This document shows positions 8,257 through 20,661 of a stretch of DNA of 20,879 nt, in pieces. Position 1 is the first letter of the stretch; every line of letters begins with the position of its first letter. The position numbers were made by a program, and so were the translations under genes. The notes beneath the pieces are model-generated. The model had not been told where the DNA came from. It made no database searches and saw nothing but the letters and a program-made list of their open reading frames with translations. The stretch spans positions 1 through 20,879 of the IMG/VR virus record IMGVR_UViG_3300037196_000405; one strand, written 5' to 3'. The DNA comes from a virus.

Positions 8257-9108
8257 TTATTCGCCGTTGCCGCCAGCCGTGCCATGGAAATTCGGGTCAG
8301 TCATGGACTTCCCAAACTTGCCGGAGAGCAAAAGATTTCCGATGACCTTGCCGACTTCCTCATTGTGGATGTTGGGATCATCCGAAGCCCAAGCAGAGGG
8401 GTTTACACCCTTGAAGAGTTCGGCGGATTTGTCTTGGCCCCCCATGGAACCAGAGACCTTGTTCAGGTCAAAAGCATAGGGCTTGCGACCGCCGACATTG
8501 GCCGGCAGGCTTTCCAGGGCCTGAATCTTGCCCTGAAGCCGGGCGTTTTCCAGGGCCATGGTCAGGGCGCTTTCGCTTTTGGCAAGATCCCCAAGGCTCA
8601 TAGCCTTGCCGGCATAGACGCTTCCGTCACCGGGGTATTCCGGGGGAGCCGAACCGTTTTCCGGGCCGCCAGGAGAAGTCCGGGACATTTCCCCGTTGCT
8701 CAAGCTGCGAATGCCGGGTGGGACTTCATAGAATTTCCCATCCGCATCCCCCGGCCGCTGGCCCACTTCGCCCACAATGCTCTCGGCTTTCGCCATGTGT
8801 TCCCCGGCCGCCTTCATCAAGCCACCCATTTTCTGGATTTCGCCGTAGGCTTTGGCAAGCTTTTCCATCACGCCCGAGGGGCTGAAACCCTCGTCTTCCT
8901 CATCCTTCTTGCCCTTGGCCGCTTTGCTCAGATAAGCCGCCTTGCAAAGCTTGTGGACTTCTTCGATTTCCGACTTGGCCATTTTGCGGGCCTTGCGGGC
9001 TTCAGCCAAATTCTCCTTGGCCTTACCCATGCAGCCCTTGAAATCCGGCTTCAGGGCCTTCTGAAGAACACCCAAAATGGCCTTCCCCAAATCATCCTGT
9101 TCACTCAT
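8257..9108 (-). CDS. Scaffold protein from an internal in-frame start
   Basis: Inside the protease-scaffold gene an ATG (residue 351, MSEQDDLGKA) is preceded by GGAAAGGA, 7 bases away, a better ribosome site than that of many genes here. Translation from it would give a 283-residue protein made only of the helical scaffold region, in the same frame and with the same stop. Lambda gpC/Nu3 and several other phages make protease and scaffold this way. The site is seen directly; its use is inferred. Confidence 0.7.
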   Translation of the reverse strand: MSEQDDLGKAILGVLQKALKPDFKGCMGKAKENLAEARKARKMAKSEIEEVHKLCKAAYLSKAAKGKKDEEDEGFSPSGVMEKLAKAYGEIQKMGGLMKAAGEHMAKAESIVGEVGQRPGDADGKFYEVPPGIRSLSNGEMSRTSPGGPENGSAPPEYPGDGSVYAGKAMSLGDLAKSESALTMALENARLQGKIQALESLPANVGGRKPYAFDLNKVSGSMGGQDKSAELFKGVNPSAWASDDPNIHNEEVGKVIGNLLLSGKFGKSMTDPNFHGTAGGNGE

Positions 9109-10158
9109 CGTAGAATCCTTTCCTAAAAGTTGGCTGACCCACAGATCGTCCGCGTCAGTCATTGTTTTGGCTTCTTGGCCTTCGTGTTCGGCCTTTTTAC
9201 TGATCATTTCGGCCAACTTCGTGGCCAATTGCCCAAGTTCATTCGCCATAGCCAAATCGGCTTTGTCTTTACCTTCGGCTTTGGCTTCCAAGGCCCAAGA
9301 ACGCTGGGAAGAGCGGATTTGGTCAAAGGCCGTGCTCAAGTCAGGGATTGTCCGCATGGATTTGGCTAAAGGCTGGCCCTGGGCCTGGGCCTTAGCCAGT
9401 TTTTTTGTGGCCTTTTTGCCTTTGCCTTTGGGCTTTTTGCCTTTGGTTTTTGGTGGTTCCGGGGCCTCTGGCAGATCCTCCGCTTTTCGGGTAATGTTCT
9501 CCTCGGGCCGGGAATCCCTTTGGCTCATAACCCCGTCTGGAGATTCTTGGGGAATCTTCGGGAAAGGTTCTGGGGATTTCTCTTGTGGTGCCGGGAGTGA
9601 AAACCCATCCCGGCAGGCTGGCGGGCCACCGGCCTTAGCCAATTCAGCCGCCGCTTTAGCCAATTCAGTTGCGGCTTTCAAAACCGGGGAAGTCTTGGGC
9701 TTGAGCCGCAGAAGCTTCGCTCCCTCTGCCACAGGCTTAGCCGACTTGACCAATTCAATCTTACAGTCCGGGTTGGCCGGGCGGTCAACGATTGAAATCT
9801 CGGTCATTTCCAGCTTGGTAATGGTGTCTCCCTCTTTAGCGAGCTTGCTACCACCGATGGAGAAACCCTTATAAACGCCCTCAACACACTTTTTCCACGC
9901 CCGATCATCTACAATTCGGGCCGTTAGGAAAAGACCCTTATGGTCCATGTTGGCGTCTTGAGCCACACCAACCGCACTCAACCCATGCATTTCCCTGATA
10001 TTGCCCCAGGCCATATAGTCTGGCAACGCGGCCTTAACCGCATCCAGGCTAATAACCTCCCCATCGCTATCTTTTGTGGGGGTGGAAGCATATCCACTTA
10101 CTGTTCGTCTTTCTTTGTCGATCTTCGAGATCGGCAAGAACATTTGAACTTGGGACAT
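8257..10158 (-). CDS. Prohead protease (XkdF/S78-like) fused to scaffold
   Basis: A 633-residue protein. Residues about 1-140 are a capsid maturation serine protease: RRTVSGYASTPTKDSDGEV, MHG with H58, GVYKGFSIGG with S100, and the typical EISIVDRPANPDCKIELVK. About 140-350 is a lysine/proline/alanine-rich linker with KGKKPKGKGKKATKK. About 351-633 is helical and charged, a scaffold: LAEARKARKMAKSEIEEVHKL, AKAYGEIQKMGGLMKAAGEHMAKAE, SESALTMALENARLQGKIQALE. The protease trims capsid and scaffold proteins inside the procapsid. The start at 10158 has TGAGGA ahead of it; the frame is open to 10263 but that part overlaps the previous gene. A second in-frame start yields scaffold alone. Confidence 0.88.
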   Translation of the reverse strand: MSQVQMFLPISKIDKERRTVSGYASTPTKDSDGEVISLDAVKAALPDYMAWGNIREMHGLSAVGVAQDANMDHKGLFLTARIVDDRAWKKCVEGVYKGFSIGGSKLAKEGDTITKLEMTEISIVDRPANPDCKIELVKSAKPVAEGAKLLRLKPKTSPVLKAATELAKAAAELAKAGGPPACRDGFSLPAPQEKSPEPFPKIPQESPDGVMSQRDSRPEENITRKAEDLPEAPEPPKTKGKKPKGKGKKATKKLAKAQAQGQPLAKSMRTIPDLSTAFDQIRSSQRSWALEAKAEGKDKADLAMANELGQLATKLAEMISKKAEHEGQEAKTMTDADDLWVSQLLGKDSTMSEQDDLGKAILGVLQKALKPDFKGCMGKAKENLAEARKARKMAKSEIEEVHKLCKAAYLSKAAKGKKDEEDEGFSPSGVMEKLAKAYGEIQKMGGLMKAAGEHMAKAESIVGEVGQRPGDADGKFYEVPPGIRSLSNGEMSRTSPGGPENGSAPPEYPGDGSVYAGKAMSLGDLAKSESALTMALENARLQGKIQALESLPANVGGRKPYAFDLNKVSGSMGGQDKSAELFKGVNPSAWASDDPNIHNEEVGKVIGNLLLSGKFGKSMTDPNFHGTAGGNGE

Positions 10159-10168
10159 AGCCGAATCC

Positions 10169-10399
10169 TCAGTTAGAGAATGAGGCCGCTGTGCCGGGAA
10201 TAGCCTTGGGGCGCAAGCCGGTGTCGAGCATCTGAAGAAGGGTCTGCAAAAGGGCCTGCCCATCCGGCATCAACCCGGAAGAGGTAAAGGCCACCGTTCC
10301 TGGCGCTGGTGCCGCCGTTACCGTGGCCGTGTTTCCCTGATTGTCCGTGATGGTGTATACGATCGACGTGCCACTAGCCACACTAACCACTGAAGCCAT
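10169..10399 (-). CDS. Small hypothetical protein
   Basis: A 76-residue protein with AAAGGA upstream of its ATG, 3 bases after the DUF5672 stop. The first half is beta-rich (SVVSVASGTSIVYTITDNQGNTATVT); the second has a predicted helix (ALLQTLLQMLDTGL). It lies just before the protease-scaffold gene. No family recognised; size and composition would suit a small decoration or head-stabilising protein, without direct proof. Confidence 0.65.
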   Translation of the reverse strand: MASVVSVASGTSIVYTITDNQGNTATVTAAPAPGTVAFTSSGLMPDGQALLQTLLQMLDTGLRPKAIPGTAASFSN

Positions 10400-10402
10400 G
10401 AT

Positions 10403-11113
10403 TCATTTCCTTTGCGAAAGATATCCAATAACATTTAACATTTCGGCCCAATCACTTTTTTGGGCCACATAGGTATTGGCCTGAGATATGCGATTGACCA
10501 AATCTTCTCTGGGGAGAAAGAGAGGAAGATTATAGGCCCCGTGAAAACCAAAGGATTTTTCTGGGCCAAGGGTACCGCGCTCAAAAGCGAACTTTTTAGC
10601 GATTTCCTTAGGTGCCCACTTGAAACCAGCGGCCTCCAACCGAGGGCGGTACTGGCGGCACAGCACATCATCCTCAACCAAAACCAAAGGAAATTCCTCT
10701 TGGTGTTCGGTTAGATACTGATTCAGGGCCACACTACGCAAAGAAAACCCACCACATCCAACATTCTCTTTCCCATGCCGCCAAGGCCACGGGGCGCCAA
10801 TATAGTCAAAAGAAAGAAAATCATCCGACCACAAACCAGGATCAATGATGCCGCTATCCCATTGAGCAATCAAAAAATGGCTGGTCTTGACGGACTTGTG
10901 AATTTCATGCCACACCATACGGGTGCATTCCGTCATGTCCCCAGAAGGATCTGCCGGGAACCACTGGACGCATCGCAAACTGGGATTAATGTCAGAATAA
11001 ACATGAATTTCGGCGAATTGAACTTTTTCTATGATCTGCCTCAAAGCCAAAGGCAGCATATCATGTGCCTTGACTTCATAGAAAATCAAAGTCACATCGG
11101 GAAGCTCAAGCAT
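10403..11113 (-). CDS. DUF5672 glycosyltransferase-like protein
   Basis: A 236-residue protein carrying the hallmarks of the DUF5672 family: HFLIAQWDSGIIDPGLW (about 79-95), FDYIGAPWPW (about 102-111) and VGCGGFSLRS (about 118-127), followed by an acidic EDD (147-149) and GFHGAYN near the C-terminus. DUF5672 proteins are found in glycan-related clusters and are thought to be glycosyltransferases. The ATG at 11113 is preferred over one at 11131 since AAGG lies 9 bases upstream of it; it overlaps the TPR-GT gene by 8 bases, so the two enzymes are probably made together and act in one modification. Substrate unknown; candidates are virion proteins encoded alongside. Confidence 0.82.
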   Translation of the reverse strand: MLELPDVTLIFYEVKAHDMLPLALRQIIEKVQFAEIHVYSDINPSLRCVQWFPADPSGDMTECTRMVWHEIHKSVKTSHFLIAQWDSGIIDPGLWSDDFLSFDYIGAPWPWRHGKENVGCGGFSLRSVALNQYLTEHQEEFPLVLVEDDVLCRQYRPRLEAAGFKWAPKEIAKKFAFERGTLGPEKSFGFHGAYNLPLFLPREDLVNRISQANTYVAQKSDWAEMLNVIGYLSQRK

Positions 11114-12497
11114 GGTTGCGGGCCTTTTCACAAAGCTCTTTTGTACGGAAAATCACATCCGCTACGGGACGATCCCAGGAACCGTTTGATTCTTGGGCAT
11201 AGATTTCAAAATTCTCATACCATGGCAAGCCACTATCAATACCCCACCAGCGCCAACAACGGGGGCTAGGACCAAGCATTAGGACTTTCTTGCCCATGGC
11301 TCCGGCCAAATGGGCTACAGCGGAATCTACTGAAATCACCAGATCCAAAGTCGATATAAGGTCCGCTGTGTCCGCAAAATCTGTGACTCGACTGGTGCCA
11401 TTCTGCATCAAGCCCAACAAACCCAAATCCTCTATATCATTTTCTCCTGCACCCTTCTGTAAAGACACAAGAGAAATTTCTGGCATAATAGCCAAAGGCA
11501 AAAAAGCCTCAAGAGAAACTACCCTACGTCGGGCGGACAGAGCGGCACTGTGGTTCCCAGAGGCCCAACATAGGCCAATGCGATAGGGGCCACTGACCTC
11601 GGGGCGCGGTTGACCCTGGACCTCTAGATACGGCTTACTTGAAATATTTTTAGGACTTTCAATCCCCAGCCACCGGACAACAGACAAAAGGGGGCTATGA
11701 TAGTCAAACCCTTCCGAGTTGATATCAGAGGCCCAATCAACAACATGACAAAACTCGAAGTTTAGCTCAAAGAGCCGTATCAATTCCGCCGGAACAGCCA
11801 GAGTGATATTGGCACCTCGCCAATGGAGGTTTTGGGCAAACCTAACCAGCATAAGACCATCCCCAAAACCTTGCTCATGGTGGACCAATAGGTTCTTCCC
11901 ACGCAAGTCCTGGCCTTGCCATTCGGATAGCCCCAAATCCCAAATTCGGCTCTTGAAGAGATTTGCCCAACGGATTTCATAAGCCTCTAGGCCCTTTTGG
12001 ATCTGGCCCAAGGCCAACAGAGCCAAGGCCCGATCACTTTCGATTTGGGCTGTACTGGGGCCAAAAGCCAGGGCCTTATCAAAGTCCTTGACTGCCCCAC
12101 CAAAGTCCTCAACCATATACTTTGCGAGGCCGAGATTATGCCAAATCGGGGCCATTTCTGGGTATTTCTGCAAGATCAGTTGAAAAAGCTTTTGGGCCTC
12201 AGCAAAGCGTCTTTGGCCGAGAATAGCCACCCCGCGATTGGACTGGATATGTACATTGCCGGGCTCACTGGCAAGCGCTCTGGCTGCTGTCGCTTCGGCC
12301 GCAACAAACTTATTCATGCCCAAAAGAACAGCCGATAGGTTTTGCAGAGCCGATATATGATTAGGATCAAGGGTGAGAGCGGCAAGATAATGCAAATATG
12401 CCGCCCCCACATTACCTTGACCATGCAGTTGCGCACCTTGAGCACTCAGGAGATCGGCCTTACTTAGAACCGTGGCTGTGGAAACGGCTGTAAGCAT
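11106..12497 (-). CDS. TPR-repeat glycosyltransferase-like protein (GT-B fold)
   Basis: A 463-residue protein. Residues about 14-180 are tetratricopeptide repeats: helix pairs such as NVGAAYLHYLAALTLDPNH, FVAAEATAARALASEPGN, RFAEAQKLFQLILQKYPEM, DFGGAVKDFDKALAFGP. Residues about 195-455 resemble the catalytic half of TPR-GT proteins and GT9/heptosyltransferases: DLRGKNLLVHHEQGFGDGL (200-215), YRIGLCWASG (305-314), and DSAVAHLAGAMGKKVLML (391-408), the donor-sugar binding region. It would transfer a sugar from a nucleotide donor to a protein or glycan in the cytoplasm. AAGGA lies 8 bases before the ATG. It overlaps the DUF5672 gene by 8 bases. Such genes are unusual within a phage head operon. 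Confidence 0.85.
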   Translation of the reverse strand: MLTAVSTATVLSKADLLSAQGAQLHGQGNVGAAYLHYLAALTLDPNHISALQNLSAVLLGMNKFVAAEATAARALASEPGNVHIQSNRGVAILGQRRFAEAQKLFQLILQKYPEMAPIWHNLGLAKYMVEDFGGAVKDFDKALAFGPSTAQIESDRALALLALGQIQKGLEAYEIRWANLFKSRIWDLGLSEWQGQDLRGKNLLVHHEQGFGDGLMLVRFAQNLHWRGANITLAVPAELIRLFELNFEFCHVVDWASDINSEGFDYHSPLLSVVRWLGIESPKNISSKPYLEVQGQPRPEVSGPYRIGLCWASGNHSAALSARRRVVSLEAFLPLAIMPEISLVSLQKGAGENDIEDLGLLGLMQNGTSRVTDFADTADLISTLDLVISVDSAVAHLAGAMGKKVLMLGPSPRCWRWWGIDSGLPWYENFEIYAQESNGSWDRPVADVIFRTKELCEKARNHA

Positions 12498-13283: not shown

Positions 13284-13781
13284 TTAACTCGGAAGTGTCC
13301 AAACGACTGCTTGGACGGCGGTTATGGTGGTTGCGGCTGAGATCTGCGCCGCAAGAACGGAATTTTGAACGACAAGCGCCTCTTTAGCCGCGATGCCATC
13401 CTGTAGAACCTTCAAGATTTGCGGGGCCGTGTGTGCGACATAGCCCCAATTTCCAGAAGCATCGGCGCACCAGAACTTGCCGCCAATACCGCCAGCCACC
13501 AGACCCACCAGATTGGCTTGGTCGGTTTGTCCTGACGGATAGGTATAGACCGCCCCAAGCGCGGAAGACTGAAAGCCCCCAATAATGGCCGACGCACATC
13601 CAGCAGATACGGCGTAAATTTGAGTGGCTTGCGCCTGCGCCAGGACGGCGGCGGCATAACCCGGGCCGGCTCCGACAACCATCCACTTTAGGAATTTGCG
13701 CGAGGCATCTGCAATCACCAACGAAGTTGATGTGGCTGAAACAGCAACCTCATACTGGGTTACGGTCATTGTATTGGACAT
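13284..13781 (-). CDS. Small phage structural protein (DUF4376-like tail)
   Basis: A 165-residue protein. The N-terminal half is alanine/valine-rich beta sequence. The C-terminal half has a pattern seen in many short phage virion-associated proteins: YPSGQTDQANLVGLV, then FWCADASGNWGYVAHTA, then DG and a helix, ending ISAATTITAVQAVVW. This pattern is sometimes labelled DUF4376 and found in tail or fibre accessory proteins. The ATG at 13781 has AAGGG 9 bases upstream and lies inside the portal C-terminus. Being between portal and protease genes, it may be a head decoration or fibre accessory; its function is not established. Confidence 0.55.
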   Translation of the reverse strand: MSNTMTVTQYEVAVSATSTSLVIADASRKFLKWMVVGAGPGYAAAVLAQAQATQIYAVSAGCASAIIGGFQSSALGAVYTYPSGQTDQANLVGLVAGGIGGKFWCADASGNWGYVAHTAPQILKVLQDGIAAKEALVVQNSVLAAQISAATTITAVQAVVWTLPS

Positions 13782-16303
13782 GGCACCAGCCCTTTCGCGC
13801 GGCTTTTCTTTTTGGGTTTTACTTTAACTGGACCGGAGCCTGGACCGGAGCCCTCTTGGGCATACCATGTTAGGCCGGTGGCAGAAGAGATGGTGTCAGA
13901 TTTGCCTAGAAATTCCGCATTTCCGCGCCGGGCTACCAAATGCCCGACCTTTTGTTCAGCAATCGGCTTATGCATATCTCCTTCGGCAAGCCACTTTTTA
14001 AAATCGCTCATCGTAAGAGCCACAACAGCTCGGATACGATCAAGGCCAGTATCATCAAAATGACTATCCGCATGATCCTGAATGGCCTTTTGGGCGCTAT
14101 TATAACCAATCATGCATTTGTGCTCATCAAAGCCCAAAATCTTTCCGTCCGGGTCCACTTCGTCTTGGTCGATCACAAAGACAATTGGGCTTTCAGGATG
14201 CTTGCCGATGTAACAATCCATATGCATGCCATCGGCCGCCGTGGTTTCGCGGATATAGCCATATGGGGCGGGCATCTTGACTTTCCACTTACGGCCATAT
14301 TTGTCCTTTTCACGGCGCTTAGAGCCTTTGGCATTTTCAATAGTTACATCTAAGCCCTGGATGCGAATGTGGCCTTTGCGGAAATTCCCTTCATGCCTTT
14401 GGGCTTTGGTGGGGGAGCGATCGGCCACATGAGAGGCTGCTTTGACCTCTGCGTGAGAGACTTTACTTACGACTGGGGAATGAACGGTGGTCGGGGGCAA
14501 GGCTGAAGAGCCATTCGGGCGGCTAGGCCCACGCATAGGAGCGGCGCCTGGACTATCCGATGACTTGGCCGGAGGCTTGGCCTGCGGTTTGGGGGCCTGC
14601 GGCGCTGCGCCGGGAAGATTAGCCAAACCACTAACCACATCCTCAAGCCTCAATGCGCCAGCCCCGGTATAGATCAAAAGCGAGTTCCCCATATCCACAG
14701 GCTCTTGGCCCAATTCTTCCCGGACCTCATTAATAGTCCGCATGCCTTCCCGCAACTGAACTTGATGGATTTGGGCCTGTTTGAGCAAATCCACTTCTTG
14801 TCTGGGCAGAAAGACAAACTCAATATCCTCATACCCAAACTGTTCCTGGATTATGTTATCCATAATGTCGTCTTTAAACCACGACATCAAAGGATAAAGA
14901 CCCTCTTCTTGGGCGCTTTGGGTTGAACTGGCGGCGGTCCCACGATTGGTCTGTTTAACAAACGGGGTGGGACTTACGGAAAAGGCATAACAGGCCAAGC
15001 GAACCAAAAGCTCATCCCGCTCCGACCAAAGGCTTTGGCCAGAGGCATTTTTGATATCAAAAGGTTTCATGCCTCCCGGCAAAAACCTTACCTTGGATTT
15101 AAGCGAAAGCTGTCCACTCAACAGAGCATCGAAATGGCCCTGAAACATGGCAATTTGCTTGGGGTTCCAATTGTCCGGGACGGTGACAATGAGTTCCGGC
15201 ATGGAACCATCGCGCCAAAATTCCAATTGATAAAACGTTTTACGAATGGCCTCGGTGGTCTCAGAAAGAGTTTGCTCGATGGGGCTATAACCAAACATCG
15301 GAAGTTCAGGTCTGGGATGCATCATCGCGTAGATGATTTCATCCTCAGACAGATTAATCATCGGCAAACCTTTGATGATTTGCTGAAACGCCGGCTGGCG
15401 ATGTTCGTAATAGATTCCGTCCGATTCAAGTTCATAGGTGGTGTCGGGGCGACGGCCGGCGTCGTCTATCAAGGGGAAAATCGTGGCCCCATCCAGAACC
15501 TCAACATTCCGGAGCTTTCCCCCAAGATTGCGATTGATGTAAAGACTGGGGGCATCAATCACAAACAAATCATCAAGAAGCTTGCGGGTCCATTGGCTGA
15601 AAGTAAGCTTTCCGTCTGGGCGCCGGAAGAACTTCTTCATTTCGTCAACAGAGGCAGAACTGGCCCGTGGCTTGTCCTTGCGCTGGATGGTCCAGGGCAG
15701 CCGCAAAAGTTGATCCTTGCGGGTTTCAATAATGGTCCCTAAAATGCCCCAACCTTGGCGCATTCCCCGCAACAGAGCATAAAGCTCAAGCCGCTTTGGG
15801 ATAAAGTTAAGGTTATAGCCGACTGGATAATCCCATTCGCGAGGACGGTTATAGAACGGCGGGCCAAAGGGCCAGACCGGCTCCATGGGGCTATACCATT
15901 GGCTGGCCATGTCCACATCGTCAATCCAACTTGGGGGCTGGTTCGGCCGATCGGAAAGATATTTGGATTTCTGGGGGCTTTCTTGGCCGGGCTCAATTCC
16001 GAAAAGGGGATTTGTTCCGGGGCGCCCGTTCGATCCATTCCAGCCTACGGCTTGTTCCCCGGAGGGACGGTTGCGCGGGCCGGTTGGGGCATAGGAATTA
16101 GTCCCTCCGGGCGGCCCCATTCGGCCAAATCCAGAAGAAAAATTACCCAAACCTGCCTTAGCCTTAGCCAAGGCTAAATGGTCCCGCTCCAGGCCGCCAT
16201 TGCTGCGCCATTCCCCAAAAGGCATAGGTTCGAGGGATTGGTTAAGACTCTCGAACTCCCGCAAAGCCGCCAGGACTTCATCATTCGAGAGTTCACCGGA
16301 CAT
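13766..16303 (-). CDS. Portal protein fused to a C-terminal InPase (inorganic pyrophosphatase-like) domain
   Basis: An 845-residue protein. Residues about 1-150 are a glycine/proline-rich, low-complexity lead. About 160-560 match a phage portal: GWGILGTIIETRKDQLLRLP, a conserved FGYSPIEQTLSETTEAI block, LACYAFSVSPTPFVKQTNRGT, and INEVREELGQEPV. The portal forms the ring at the capsid vertex through which DNA enters. A proline/alanine linker (about 560-630) leads to residues about 635-775, which look like the phage polyvalent-protein InPase domain: GNFRKGHIRIQGLDVTIEN, MPAPYGYIRETTAADG, DCYIGKHPES, FVIDQDEVDPDGK, GFDEHKCMIGY. The tail ends in a lysine-rich PVKVKPKKKSRAK. The ATG has GAGGAAG 8 bases upstream. 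Its end overlaps the next gene by 16 bases. Whether the InPase part is active is unknown. Confidence 0.9.
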   Translation of the reverse strand: MSGELSNDEVLAALREFESLNQSLEPMPFGEWRSNGGLERDHLALAKAKAGLGNFSSGFGRMGPPGGTNSYAPTGPRNRPSGEQAVGWNGSNGRPGTNPLFGIEPGQESPQKSKYLSDRPNQPPSWIDDVDMASQWYSPMEPVWPFGPPFYNRPREWDYPVGYNLNFIPKRLELYALLRGMRQGWGILGTIIETRKDQLLRLPWTIQRKDKPRASSASVDEMKKFFRRPDGKLTFSQWTRKLLDDLFVIDAPSLYINRNLGGKLRNVEVLDGATIFPLIDDAGRRPDTTYELESDGIYYEHRQPAFQQIIKGLPMINLSEDEIIYAMMHPRPELPMFGYSPIEQTLSETTEAIRKTFYQLEFWRDGSMPELIVTVPDNWNPKQIAMFQGHFDALLSGQLSLKSKVRFLPGGMKPFDIKNASGQSLWSERDELLVRLACYAFSVSPTPFVKQTNRGTAASSTQSAQEEGLYPLMSWFKDDIMDNIIQEQFGYEDIEFVFLPRQEVDLLKQAQIHQVQLREGMRTINEVREELGQEPVDMGNSLLIYTGAGALRLEDVVSGLANLPGAAPQAPKPQAKPPAKSSDSPGAAPMRGPSRPNGSSALPPTTVHSPVVSKVSHAEVKAASHVADRSPTKAQRHEGNFRKGHIRIQGLDVTIENAKGSKRREKDKYGRKWKVKMPAPYGYIRETTAADGMHMDCYIGKHPESPIVFVIDQDEVDPDGKILGFDEHKCMIGYNSAQKAIQDHADSHFDDTGLDRIRAVVALTMSDFKKWLAEGDMHKPIAEQKVGHLVARRGNAEFLGKSDTISSATGLTWYAQEGSGPGSGPVKVKPKKKSRAKGLVPCPIQ

Positions 16304-16506
16304 TATTCAACTTCCTCATCGATAAAATCGATTTTCTCTTTGGACTTCTTCAGCCCCTTGGGCAGCTTGACCAATTCAAGCTGATCCAGCGACACGGCTC
16401 GGAACTCATCCCCCAGCACCACAATGGCTTGAGGGCCACATGGACCGGGAGCATAACCCACCACAGCCCCATCCAGGCCATTCACTCTAACCAACAGCAT
16501 TTTCAT
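16303..16506 (-). CDS. Small hypothetical protein between large terminase and portal
   Basis: A 67-residue protein whose ATG has AAGGGG 8 bases upstream and overlaps the end of the terminase gene by 20 bases. Its TAA shares one base with the portal ATG, so the three genes are translationally linked. The N-terminal 45 residues look like a small beta-rich fold (LLVRVNGLDGAVVGY, then AIVVLGDEFRAVSLDQL); the last 20 are highly charged (KKSKEKIDFIDEEVE). Position and size recall lambda gpW, which sits between terminase and portal, but the sequence does not resemble it and no function should be assumed. Confidence 0.75.
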   Translation of the reverse strand: MKMLLVRVNGLDGAVVGYAPGPCGPQAIVVLGDEFRAVSLDQLELVKLPKGLKKSKEKIDFIDEEVE

Positions 16507-17995
16507 TTGGTATTCCCCTTAGATTTAAAGTTTGGCTAAGGCCAGTGCATTCCGGGTGCCACACAAATTCACCATCGCTGGCACGGCTGCCGCCTAAAAC
16601 AGGCTTACCGCAGTGATAGCAAAGCTTCGGGCCATAAGCCGCATCAAAGGCTTTTTGGGCTGTGGCATTGTAGAGTTCAGTAAGTTCATTTTCCAGAATA
16701 TCTTCTGATTCGGGATAATTCCGCCAAGGCCGGGGATTGTCCACTTCGGCTGGCTGGGTGGACTGGGCTTCTTTTTGCTTTGCGGAAGCCAAGGCGTAGA
16801 ATTTTATCAAATTTTCCCCTGGCCCACGCTCCACCCAACACTGGCGAGCTAAGGCCAGAGCGCACACACAATCGTCATGGCAACCTTCGGGGGCGGAATA
16901 TCGAACTCCTGTGCGGGTATATTCATATTCAAAACTCTCCAGTTCAGCAGAAATGATCCCCTTGGGAAAAGAGATCTCATTTTTCTGGATGGCAACAGCC
17001 AAACCTTCCATAAGCTTTTGCTTGGAACTTGACGAGAAGTTGAAGCCCTGAAAATTCCCGTGTTCTACTTGAAGTTCTTCCAGAACCGGATCACCCAGAC
17101 CAGTCGAATCCACAAGAGCCGAGGTATCTTCACCCACCAAAGCCCATGCTTTCTGGATAGAGACCCGCCAGGGAACCCCCTGCCACCGCTCAAACTTGCA
17201 GACTTCCCCAAGTTCATTCAAACCAATGCAAACAAACCAATCGGTTGATTTAGCTAGATCAATACCCCAGCTTTTGACCGGACCTTGGCCTAGACCATCT
17301 TCGTTTAAACAGCTTTGAATATACTTAATGCCAAACGGATTGCCCGAATCATCTCCAGGTTCAGCATAATAGAGTTCTTTGAAAATATTATCAGGGAGAA
17401 CATCTCGCGCTTCTTCAACTTCCTCGGCTTTTGTCACGCCAGCCGACACCGCATCCATTGCGGTGATCTTGGCATAATGCATGTACGGGGAACCGGCCTC
17501 AGCTTTACGGGCGAGATTGTAAAACCAATTCTTCCGCCCTTTGACGTTCCCAATGATCCTAACCGGGCCGTTGGTGGCCGTGAGGGTGGACCGGATGGCG
17601 AACCAGCAATCTTCCTTAACCCGGCTGGCCTCATCAATGACCGCCCCGAAAACATCCTCACCATAAAGGTTATCTGCATTATCGCCGGACTTGAACCAAA
17701 TCACCGCCCCATTGATGAGAGTGATTTTCGGGTTAGGGCTTTCGGTGGCCGTGAAGGCCCCCCGCGTCAGCCCTTGCTTGATGCGGCGAAATGCAATCTC
17801 ACTCTGATTGTAGCCTGGAGCTACCCACCAAAAATTCTGCCCAGGCAGACCTAAAAGGGCCTTTTCAACAATCCACACCATACAAGCATGTGTTTTGCCG
17901 CTCTTTGTGGATGCCTCACAACATAAAATTCGCTTTTCGGTAAAGATCGCTTCTTTTTGTTTTGGATACAAAAATGGGCGAGTATATTCAACCAC
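16487..17995 (-). CDS. terL: Terminase large subunit (ATPase/nuclease) with C-terminal zinc-binding module
   Basis: A 502-residue packaging motor. The ATPase domain has Walker A CEASTKSGKT at residues 26-35 and Walker B FGAVIDEAS with D121 and E122. The RNase H-like nuclease shows its acidic residues in WGIDLAKSTD (D246), ALVDSTGLGD (D296) and HDDCVCALA (D374/D375). It cuts concatemeric DNA and pumps it through the portal. A C-terminal tail adds C459-x2-C462-x17-H480-x2-C483, a half-LIM-like zinc site not part of the core enzyme. A GTG start at 17995 is chosen: AAGG lies 9 bases before it and homologous-looking sequence begins there (VVEYTRPFLYPKQKEA). The frame remains open to an ATG at 18172, but that extension would translate through the terminator hairpin and is basic, low-complexity sequence. 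Confidence 0.93.
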   Translation of the reverse strand: MVEYTRPFLYPKQKEAIFTEKRILCCEASTKSGKTHACMVWIVEKALLGLPGQNFWWVAPGYNQSEIAFRRIKQGLTRGAFTATESPNPKITLINGAVIWFKSGDNADNLYGEDVFGAVIDEASRVKEDCWFAIRSTLTATNGPVRIIGNVKGRKNWFYNLARKAEAGSPYMHYAKITAMDAVSAGVTKAEEVEEARDVLPDNIFKELYYAEPGDDSGNPFGIKYIQSCLNEDGLGQGPVKSWGIDLAKSTDWFVCIGLNELGEVCKFERWQGVPWRVSIQKAWALVGEDTSALVDSTGLGDPVLEELQVEHGNFQGFNFSSSSKQKLMEGLAVAIQKNEISFPKGIISAELESFEYEYTRTGVRYSAPEGCHDDCVCALALARQCWVERGPGENLIKFYALASAKQKEAQSTQPAEVDNPRPWRNYPESEDILENELTELYNATAQKAFDAAYGPKLCYHCGKPVLGGSRASDGEFVWHPECTGLSQTLNLRGIPNENAVG

Positions 17996-18042
17996 CGAAA
18001 AGAACCTTACAAAGAGGCCAGAGGAAGCCGAAAGGCGGGCAT

Positions 18043-18084
18043 AAAAAATCCCCCGAGAGGTCCACAGCCTACCTCTCGGGGGAT
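18043..18084 (-). terminator. Rho-independent terminator, perfect 14-bp stem
   Basis: Perfect inverted repeat: ATCCCCCGAGAGGT at 18048-18061 and its exact complement at 18071-18084, with a 9-base loop. Reading leftward the stem is followed by a run of six T (18048-18043). There is no T run on the other side, so it is directional and stops leftward transcripts. It lies between the HTH gene and the large terminase start about 48 bases on. Confidence 0.9.
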
Positions 18085-18217
18085 CGTGTAATAATGTCGT
18101 GGCAACTGGTAGAAGGGGAACTGCCAGGGGCCAGAGCCGAGGCCGAAGCCTTTCGGGGTGGCGCCGCAACACTATGTATAGAATATGCGCGGAACAGGGC
18201 AGGGAGACAACAGAAAT
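18085..18217 (-). other. Non-coding leader region ahead of the terminator, with a small hairpin
   Basis: No gene is supported between the stop of the HTH gene and the terminator stem. On the minus strand the region holds a compact hairpin (CCGAA-AGGC-TTCGG, 18143-18156) and GC-rich flanking blocks. A weak promoter-like pair (TTGTCT, then CATATT 17 bases later) lies near its start, but the match is poor. It may be the 3' untranslated region of the HTH gene, or a short structured RNA ending at the terminator. Confidence 0.3.
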
Positions 18218-19211: not shown

Positions 19212-20054
19212 CTACAAAATACATTCACAAGGATAGATAAATTCTTCTTCTTCTTGACTTAGATCTAGGATTTCTATTTCTGTATTATTATTCAAAATTT
19301 CTCTGGCCTTGGCCCAAAACTCACCAGATTTGATGTGTTCTGTGGGCTCTAATCCATTTTCTTTTAAGATTTTAAATTTAAGCTCCATCTCATAAAGCCA
19401 TTCATCTTTGTTAATGGAATAACCGATAGCATATTCGGCTTCACGTGCCTTAACAAAGATATCAAATTCCAGACAATAAATAACATACCAGTGCTGCTTG
19501 CCCGCTTTGATGCAGCCTTTACAATTGCCATGCTTGTACACACTGTAAGTTAATGGGGGAATTATATCAAGGTCACGGATATAATTGATTCTTTCTTGCC
19601 AATACGCCAATGGATAAGCTGTCCTATAGCCCTGTGCAGCCATAATTGAGCTTCGTCGCTGAATACGAACAGTTTCATTGGCATCAAATCCATAGTAAAT
19701 AACGCAATCTTTGTCTGGTATATTGTCCTTCAGCCATTTTATAAAGGGCTGTGTTTTTGATCTGTTGGTGCAAATTTCTCTTCCACCTAGACCAGGCCCT
19801 TTAAATGCTTTGGCTTTCAGGCATATATCAAATTGATCCATTGTTTTCCAACCTGGCATGTTTGCGTATGTGATAGGCATTTGGAGATATGCAGCCACCT
19901 CTGTTTTAAATCGTTTGATATCCTTATCTTCTACTCTAGGGGAAATATCATGATTAAGTAAAACAGTATGTTCTTTTCCGTATTTGCGTGCAACTAGTAC
20001 AGCAACTTTTGCACTAGATTCTCCCCCAGAAAAGCAAACAATATGTTTAGTCAT
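19212..20054 (-). CDS. PAPS reductase/PP-loop (adenine nucleotide alpha-hydrolase) family protein
   Basis: A 280-residue protein with a PP-loop signature SGGESSA at residues 9-15, directly after the first beta strand (KHIVCF). This loop binds the phosphates of ATP or PAPS in PAPS reductases and related sulfur-transfer or nucleotidyl enzymes. R-E-I-C-T at about 92-96, followed by a lysine and proline, resembles the substrate motif of sulfonucleotide reductase-like proteins. A C-x2-C pair at about 178 and 181 (GNCKGC) may bind metal or a cluster. The start at 20054 has AAAGGA in front and follows the small-terminase stop by 4 bases; a start at 20081 would overlap that gene and lacks as good a site. 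The gene is visibly more AT-rich than its neighbours, suggesting separate acquisition. The true substrate is unknown. Confidence 0.75.
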   Translation of the reverse strand: MTKHIVCFSGGESSAKVAVLVARKYGKEHTVLLNHDISPRVEDKDIKRFKTEVAAYLQMPITYANMPGWKTMDQFDICLKAKAFKGPGLGGREICTNRSKTQPFIKWLKDNIPDKDCVIYYGFDANETVRIQRRSSIMAAQGYRTAYPLAYWQERINYIRDLDIIPPLTYSVYKHGNCKGCIKAGKQHWYVIYCLEFDIFVKAREAEYAIGYSINKDEWLYEMELKFKILKENGLEPTEHIKSGEFWAKAREILNNNTEIEILDLSQEEEEFIYPCECIL

Positions 20055-20058
20055 TTCC

Positions 20059-20661
20059 TTATTCCTTTGGGGTAATGTCAATGGTCGGAGACTCGATGCC
20101 AGCGGAATGATGACTTAAGTCTATGGGCGAGGCACCGAAATTCAATGTAATAGCCGAAGGTACAGTGGGGGCATTTTGGGTTGCCTTGGGTGGGGCTACA
20201 GTGCGATCCAGGCCCATAATAGCGGCTTGGCGAAGTTCCCCCATAGGCATGGCTTTGCGCTGGCTGTTATCCTCAAGTCGATCCCGCATTTCGTCCAGAG
20301 CCAGTTCGGCCACATCCACAAGCTTATCCCGCAAGCGAGCCGTGTCTTCTAGGTCCGAGGAAATAATTTGATCCTGGTAATAGGCCATAAGGTCCATGAA
20401 GCCAGGGTCAACCAGCAACTGCTGCAAACGGGTGGGGGTGGTGCCTACGATGGCAGAGACCTCGGTTATTTTTCTCCCAGAAGCCAAAAGCTGCGCTTGC
20501 CTGTGGTGAATGGCCCGAAGCTTCTGGATTGGCGGGGGGCCTACAGTTTTGGCTGTGCTTAGGGTCTCCATGTCCTGAGGGGTCAGTTCACGCACTATCT
20601 CAATGATAAGGGGCTTTGCCTGCCTACCGGGAGTGGGAAAGATGTCCGAGACTTTAGCCAT
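20059..20661 (-). CDS. Putative terminase small subunit (helix-turn-helix)
   Basis: This 200-residue protein most likely recognises phage DNA and hands it to the large terminase subunit. Residues about 45-90 look like a helix-turn-helix of the small-terminase type: a basic helix (QKLRAIHHRQAQLLASG), then KITEVSAIVGTTPTRLQQLL followed by DPGFMDLM, the pattern of an HTH recognition helix plus the 'DPxF' turn frequent in phage small terminases. Residues about 100-135 are strongly charged and helical, suited to oligomerisation. The C-terminal 45 residues are proline/threonine rich and probably flexible. It is separated from the large terminase by three genes, which is unusual. The DUF6362-like HTH gene at 18218-18703 is a competing candidate for this role. 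Family assignment is by pattern only. Confidence 0.55.
   Translation of the reverse strand: MAKVSDIFPTPGRQAKPLIIEIVRELTPQDMETLSTAKTVGPPPIQKLRAIHHRQAQLLASGRKITEVSAIVGTTPTRLQQLLVDPGFMDLMAYYQDQIISSDLEDTARLRDKLVDVAELALDEMRDRLEDNSQRKAMPMGELRQAAIMGLDRTVAPPKATQNAPTVPSAITLNFGASPIDLSHHSAGIESPTIDITPKE

Follow-up and report, generated by a model that had tools for sequence, protein, structure and literature searches.

Fusions of phage portal proteins to an inorganic pyrophosphatase-like (InPase) domain are not new in kind. In Iyer et al. 2017 (PMC5512222), such fusions (e.g. BcepF1.124) are described and counted in the InPase class, four metal-coordinating acids are assigned to the domain, and the phage InPase group is reported to be without a β-hairpin relative to class I pyrophosphatases (PPases). 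The same paper proposes injection, with nucleotide-like compounds or pyrophosphate as the substrates. The gp19 portals of the Pbunavirus phages E217 and Pa193 (PDB 9b41) are 765 aa long and were resolved by cryo-EM to residue 528 (PMC10329688, PMC11042391), the first 93 residues of the Pa193 portal being likewise unresolved (PMC11042391); the tail beyond residue 528 includes the InPase domain. In E217, the C-terminal barrel of the portal points into the head, is folded only while the head is filled with DNA, and unfolds after ejection (PMC10329688).

We analyzed a viral contig of 20,879 bases (its whole length is called “the window” here) that encodes a protein of the same domain family (PF18823) and the same portal-plus-InPase architecture as the BcepF1.124/polyvalent InPase proteins. 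The gene lies on the minus strand, a point that the first-pass annotation of this DNA had left unstated, and its 845-aa frame (16303 to 13766) is free of internal stops. Pfam matched Phage_portal (PF04860) to residues 201–532 (66.1 bits vs. a cut-off of 39.1) and InPase to residues 634–772 (134 bits vs. a cut-off of 26.8; E = 3.9e-39); these scores place both matches far beyond chance. PHROGs was concordant, returning the portal family phrog_2662 (2e-60) and several InPase-bearing families. PF00719, the canonical class I soluble PPase family, had no match in the protein at E-values up to 0.1. The first-pass annotation had called an InPase domain at about residues 635–775, behind a Pro/Ala linker and in one frame with the portal, and these calls agree with the profile matches and with the composition of the linker. 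The family name and the coordinates that it gave were also correct, and the four motifs that it quoted were all located: GNFRKGHIRIQG at 639–650, MPAPYGYIRETTAADG at 677–692, DCYIG at 696–700, and GFDEHK at 724–729. The protein is a genuine portal that carries a divergent class I PPase-related domain on a flexible Pro/Ala linker.

Table 1. Features of the portal-InPase gene and of its head-module neighbors (positions in the window).
Feature	Positions	Strand	Remarks
Whole gene, portal-InPase fusion, 845 aa	13766–16303	minus	ATG start; stop 13766–13768; full-length homologues L003, L004, L006
Terminase large subunit (TerL), directly upstream of the portal gene	16487–18172	minus	Pfam, PHROGs
Prohead-protease-like protein, candidate for maturation cleavage	8257–10263	minus	Genomic context
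N-terminal region, residues 1–118, Gly/Pro-rich	15950–16303	minus	Without family match
Portal region kept across the lineage, residues 119–559 (PF04860 match 201–532)	14627–15949	minus	
Pro/Ala/Ser-rich linker, residues 560–633	14405–14626	minus	Linkers of close relatives alike in length and make-up
InPase domain PF18823, residues 634–772	13988–14404	minus	Pfam; AF2 model of residues 625–790
E656	14336–14338	minus	Invariant; aligns with the first class I PPase active-site Glu (E. coli E20)
Motif D691-G-M693-H-M-D696	14216–14233	minus	Matches D65-G-D67-P-V-D70 of E. coli PPase
M693 codon, ATG	14225–14227	minus	In place of D67
D726-E-H-K729	14117–14128	minus	Near-invariant family signature
C-terminal tail, residues 773–845, basic end VKVKPKKKSRAK	13769–13987	minus	Without family match

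The gene belongs to a head module (Table 1). The TerL gene that adjoins it upstream is the expected context for a portal, and the genes downstream include the prohead-protease-like one and those for connectors. By its Pfam matches, the protein is a structural protein of the head module to which one effector-type domain is attached; polyvalent proteins in the sense of Iyer et al. 2017 combine several such domains in a single chain encoded close to virion genes. Several further minus-strand genes were observed in the vicinity. A DUF4376/tail-fibre-like gene (13284–13781) shares 16 bases with the 3′ end of the portal gene; one gene with TPR and Glyco_transf_9 matches (11106–12497) and a DUF5672 gene (10403–11131) lie between the portal and the prohead protease; and a PAPS-reductase-like gene (19212–20081; phrog_424, 6.4e-26) lies upstream of the terminase genes.

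The fusion is conserved. Three independent contigs (L003, L004, and L006) encode the two-domain protein at near full length with 55–60% identity, which is incompatible with a missed stop or an assembly chimera. A portal-only profile brought in about 120 more loci, drawn from viral contigs and from bacterial genomes. Among these, every complete portal that is at least 60% identical to the window protein ends in an InPase domain, answering the call for a comparison with portal homologues; the nearest relatives that lack the domain are about 55% identical.

What follows the portal in this lineage is variable. Of 62 C-terminal tails, Pfam identified MuF in 27, InPase in 24, PBECR3 in 3, and NUDIX in 1; other members of the lineage have an unassigned tail or none. 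The architectures comprised 57 portals alone, 32 portal-MuF, 24 portal-InPase, and a single portal-InPase-MuF protein (L227). In L162, the portal is short and InPase is encoded separately downstream, in one protein with a MuF-like part; in L005, the portal is again short and is followed by two frames, one with MuF and another with InPase. The portal-MuF proteins of Brevundimonas phage Polewnik (L031) and the Arthrobacter phages Sonali and Mufasa8 have a related portal (27–36% identity) and an extension at the same place, but theirs is MuF or NUDIX plus MuF, not InPase. We read the position after the portal as one exchangeable cargo slot that holds InPase, MuF, the PBECR3 nuclease, NUDIX, or nothing. 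We infer from these architectures that in some members InPase entered between the portal and MuF parts and that MuF was lost in the clade of the window, in that order. Separately, an intein splicing domain (PF14890, 2.5e-5) was matched by one of the 62 tails. An internal start that would yield free InPase was also sought in the linkers of all 24 InPase-bearing portals; they share no conserved start with a ribosome site, and this candidate was rejected.

InPase has joined portals several times, across three Pfam portal families. It is found on PF04860 portals (the window, L003, L004, L006, L034, and L066), on PF06381 portals (L011, L012, L014, L021, L023, L025, and L053), and on PF06074 portals (L008, L060, L077, and L108). 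When 98 InPase domains are placed on a tree, the PF04860 carriers related to the window form one clade (support 98/93), and at least six changes between portal and non-portal carriers are required, a count taken from one tree in which many deep branches are weak. The PF04860-lineage carriers of InPase fall into two groups in the portal tree, whereas their InPase domains form one; this difference suggests that the domain moved between portals. Most non-portal carriers are polyvalent-type proteins of 1200–3600 aa, which bears out the link to polyvalent proteins drawn in the first-pass annotation. An InPase match is present in 456 phage records, including 292 from Pseudomonas phages.

Three of the carriers have additional domains. 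A 1057-aa ORF (L053:3509–6679) continues from a PF06381 portal and InPase into a eukaryotic-type topoisomerase I core (PF01028, 2.5e-15). A 2743-aa ORF (L077:1885–10113) begins with Portal_Mu and goes on to InPase and a methyltransferase domain; this portal is itself a polyvalent-type protein. In a 947-aa ORF (L017:5407–8247), a 2H/Acb1-like (anti-CBASS) domain stands immediately N-terminal to InPase, a hint of nucleotide-type substrates.

The structure of the domain was modeled with AF2 from 69 sequences, at a mean pLDDT of 94.5. In Foldseek, the top PDB matches of the model were all class I PPases, with probabilities near 1 and TM-scores of about 0.4. The relationship to class I PPases is clear in this predicted structure; the TM-scores indicate that the fold match is partial and that the overall shape has diverged. 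Matches among viral models were InPase-bearing phage proteins, including the portal of Serratia phage MTx. The model of the full-length fusion (9 sequences; mean pLDDT 39.8) supports no claim.

The closest structurally studied portals differ from the window protein in several ways. In both, a C-terminal InPase domain follows a linker, and phmmer aligns residues 645–781 of the window protein with Pbunavirus gp19 at 2.7e-19. However, the portal parts belong to different groups: that of the window is PF04860, and the Pbunavirus type is assigned to PF06381 from the matches of IMG/VR fusion loci that resemble it in length and layout. The E217 portal stops right after InPase, whereas the window protein continues for another 73 residues, and E217 retains DGDEVD where the window protein has DGMHMD. 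What this locus adds is a portal of another family than that of the Pbunavirus fusions and an altered motif. By homology to E217, the tail of the window protein would lie on the side of the portal ring that faces the capsid interior, a placement taken from the published work on these homologues.

The modified motif falls in the putative active site. Profile comparison aligned YGYI and DGMHMD with Y55GYI and D65-G-D67-P-V-D70 of E. coli PPase, and in a profile search of the PDB, E656 fell opposite the first Glu of the M. tuberculosis PPase active site. Relative to the E. coli enzyme and M. tuberculosis Rv3628, the counterparts of E20, Y55, D65, and D70 are kept, but that of D67 is Met, leaving the D65/D67/D70 triad of canonical class I soluble PPases incomplete. 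The general base of the E. coli enzyme is considered to be Asp67, and a loss there is expected to impair catalysis. The comparison with polyvalent InPase proteins is similar: IEN..G..R, YGYI, DGxxxD, and FDEHK are held in common, but the central Asp of DGDxxD is Met in the window protein. The first-pass annotation had named loss of the acidic metal-binding residues as grounds for refutation; of the acidic residues in the putative active site, E656, D691, D696, D726, and E727 are in place, and one, the Asp expected at 693, is lost. We found no earlier report of a loss at the Asp67 position in the literature searched, which was covered in part.

How widespread is the loss? Ten positions are invariant in the 98 domains (E656, R663, Y681, G682, D691, D696, Q713, D726, E727, and K729), and position 693 is Asp in 94. 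The four exceptions, all portals, are the window and L003 (Met) and L004 and L011 (Glu). Of the 24 InPase-bearing portals of the PF04860 lineage, 11 have Met at position 693, 9 have Asp, 2 have Glu, and 2 have Gln or Ser; the residue is therefore non-acidic in 13 of the 24, with at least five switches between acid and non-acid on the portal tree. Two patterns were used in the wider family, one allowing D or M at position 693 and the other (FDEHKC) ignoring it. With both, non-Asp residues were confined to portal carriers, although, outside portals, the first pattern could overlook any residue except D and M. Chance or sequencing error as the origin of M693 was considered and rejected: ATG is three changes away from GAC or GAT, and Met recurs in 11 of 24 members on many different contigs.

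The domain nonetheless appears to be under purifying selection in the clade of the window. The non-acid members retain the rest of the motif, with one departure in 156 alignment cells, and the median rate of InPase relative to portal is 1.25 in non-acid members vs. 1.56 in acid members. For L117/L118, the sole close Met-Met pair usable for this purpose because dS is saturated elsewhere, dN/dS is 0.045 in the InPase part and 0.033 in the portal part. Taken together, the kept motif, the unaccelerated rate, and the low dN/dS suggest an active site that is altered or weakened but still maintained by selection, rather than one in decay. It is conceivable, and we advance this tentatively from the sequence comparisons, that the domain is no longer a pyrophosphatase in this clade and has a related site with changed chemistry or substrate, held inside the capsid at one copy per ring subunit.

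The explanation that we rank first, with moderate confidence, is that the InPase domain travels in the virion as cargo and acts early in infection on a phosphate substrate of the nucleotide type. The tails, which would number up to twelve in a ring that is the usual dodecamer, would point into the capsid, as homology to E217 and Pa193 implies. As infection begins, the domain, whether freed from the portal or at the vertex of the emptied capsid, would act on a nucleotide-type substrate with a phosphoanhydride or phosphoester bond. This reading takes first place because MuF, NUDIX, and PBECR3 occupy the same slot in relatives, because other carriers are polyvalent-type proteins, and because one carrier has a 2H/Acb1-like neighbor. 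The suggestion in the first-pass annotation that the domain may ride into the host is also the proposal of Iyer et al. 2017 for this fusion. Several points count against it. Portals remain in the virion, so delivery would require cleavage, and we found no report of portal-tail cleavage in the literature searched; nor did that literature hold a demonstrated activity, substrate, or ejection for any InPase member. The lost Asp67 equivalent, the lack of a conserved internal start, and the partial fold match also weigh against cargo.

The loss of the Asp makes a dead or weakened binding module the main rival, although we consider it rather unlikely. Such a module would not hydrolyze anything; it would bind metal and phosphate (the DNA backbone or a nucleotide) and serve as a contact or sensor on the crown side. 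The replacement of the Asp67 equivalent in over half of the clade, the repeated changes at that position, and the near-complete retention of the other motif residues accord with this idea, as does the dependence of the E217 barrel’s folding on a DNA-filled head. However, the Asp- and Glu-bearing members make nearly half of the clade look catalytically competent, judged by sequence, and a pure DNA contact leaves the presence of InPase on polyvalent proteins unexplained.

The first-pass annotation had suggested that the domain might remove pyrophosphate at the vertex where DNA enters, and this suggestion fared poorly. Here, a housekeeping pyrophosphatase would clear pyrophosphate during packaging or during the first transcription or replication of the incoming genome. 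Packaging terminases split ATP into ADP and phosphate, not pyrophosphate, and we know of no pyrophosphate source at the packaging vertex. The family name and the conserved metal-site motif speak for this function, and pyrophosphate clearing in the infected cell is one alternative offered by Iyer et al. 2017 (PMC5512222). On the other hand, the window protein lacks the Asp67 equivalent, and the domain moves freely among portals, MuF-like proteins, and polyvalent proteins, which would not be expected of a packaging-vertex role. We thus view pyrophosphate clearing as improbable and as the least likely of the functional readings. More improbable still is a decaying hitchhiker, i.e. a domain acquired once whose function is being lost: the Asp67 equivalent and the residue after DEHK do vary, but the InPase part of L117/L118 is nearly as constrained as the portal part, and the non-acid members evolve no faster relative to their portals. 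Finally, nothing was found in favor of two genes having been joined by a sequencing or assembly error, and more than 20 independent contigs that encode the same fusion refute it, ruling out a missed stop, a gene boundary, or an assembly chimera.

These findings bear on portals that have already been studied at high resolution. In two studies of therapeutic Pseudomonas phages, about 237 C-terminal portal residues were left unmodeled, and that region includes InPase. Members that naturally carry Asp, Glu, or Met at the same site allow a direct test of whether selection keeps pyrophosphatase chemistry, and the swaps of InPase, MuF, NUDIX, and PBECR3 at one site constitute a natural series for testing portal-borne cargo. 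If the tail is a packaged enzyme, then a structural ring of the virion would double as a delivery platform.
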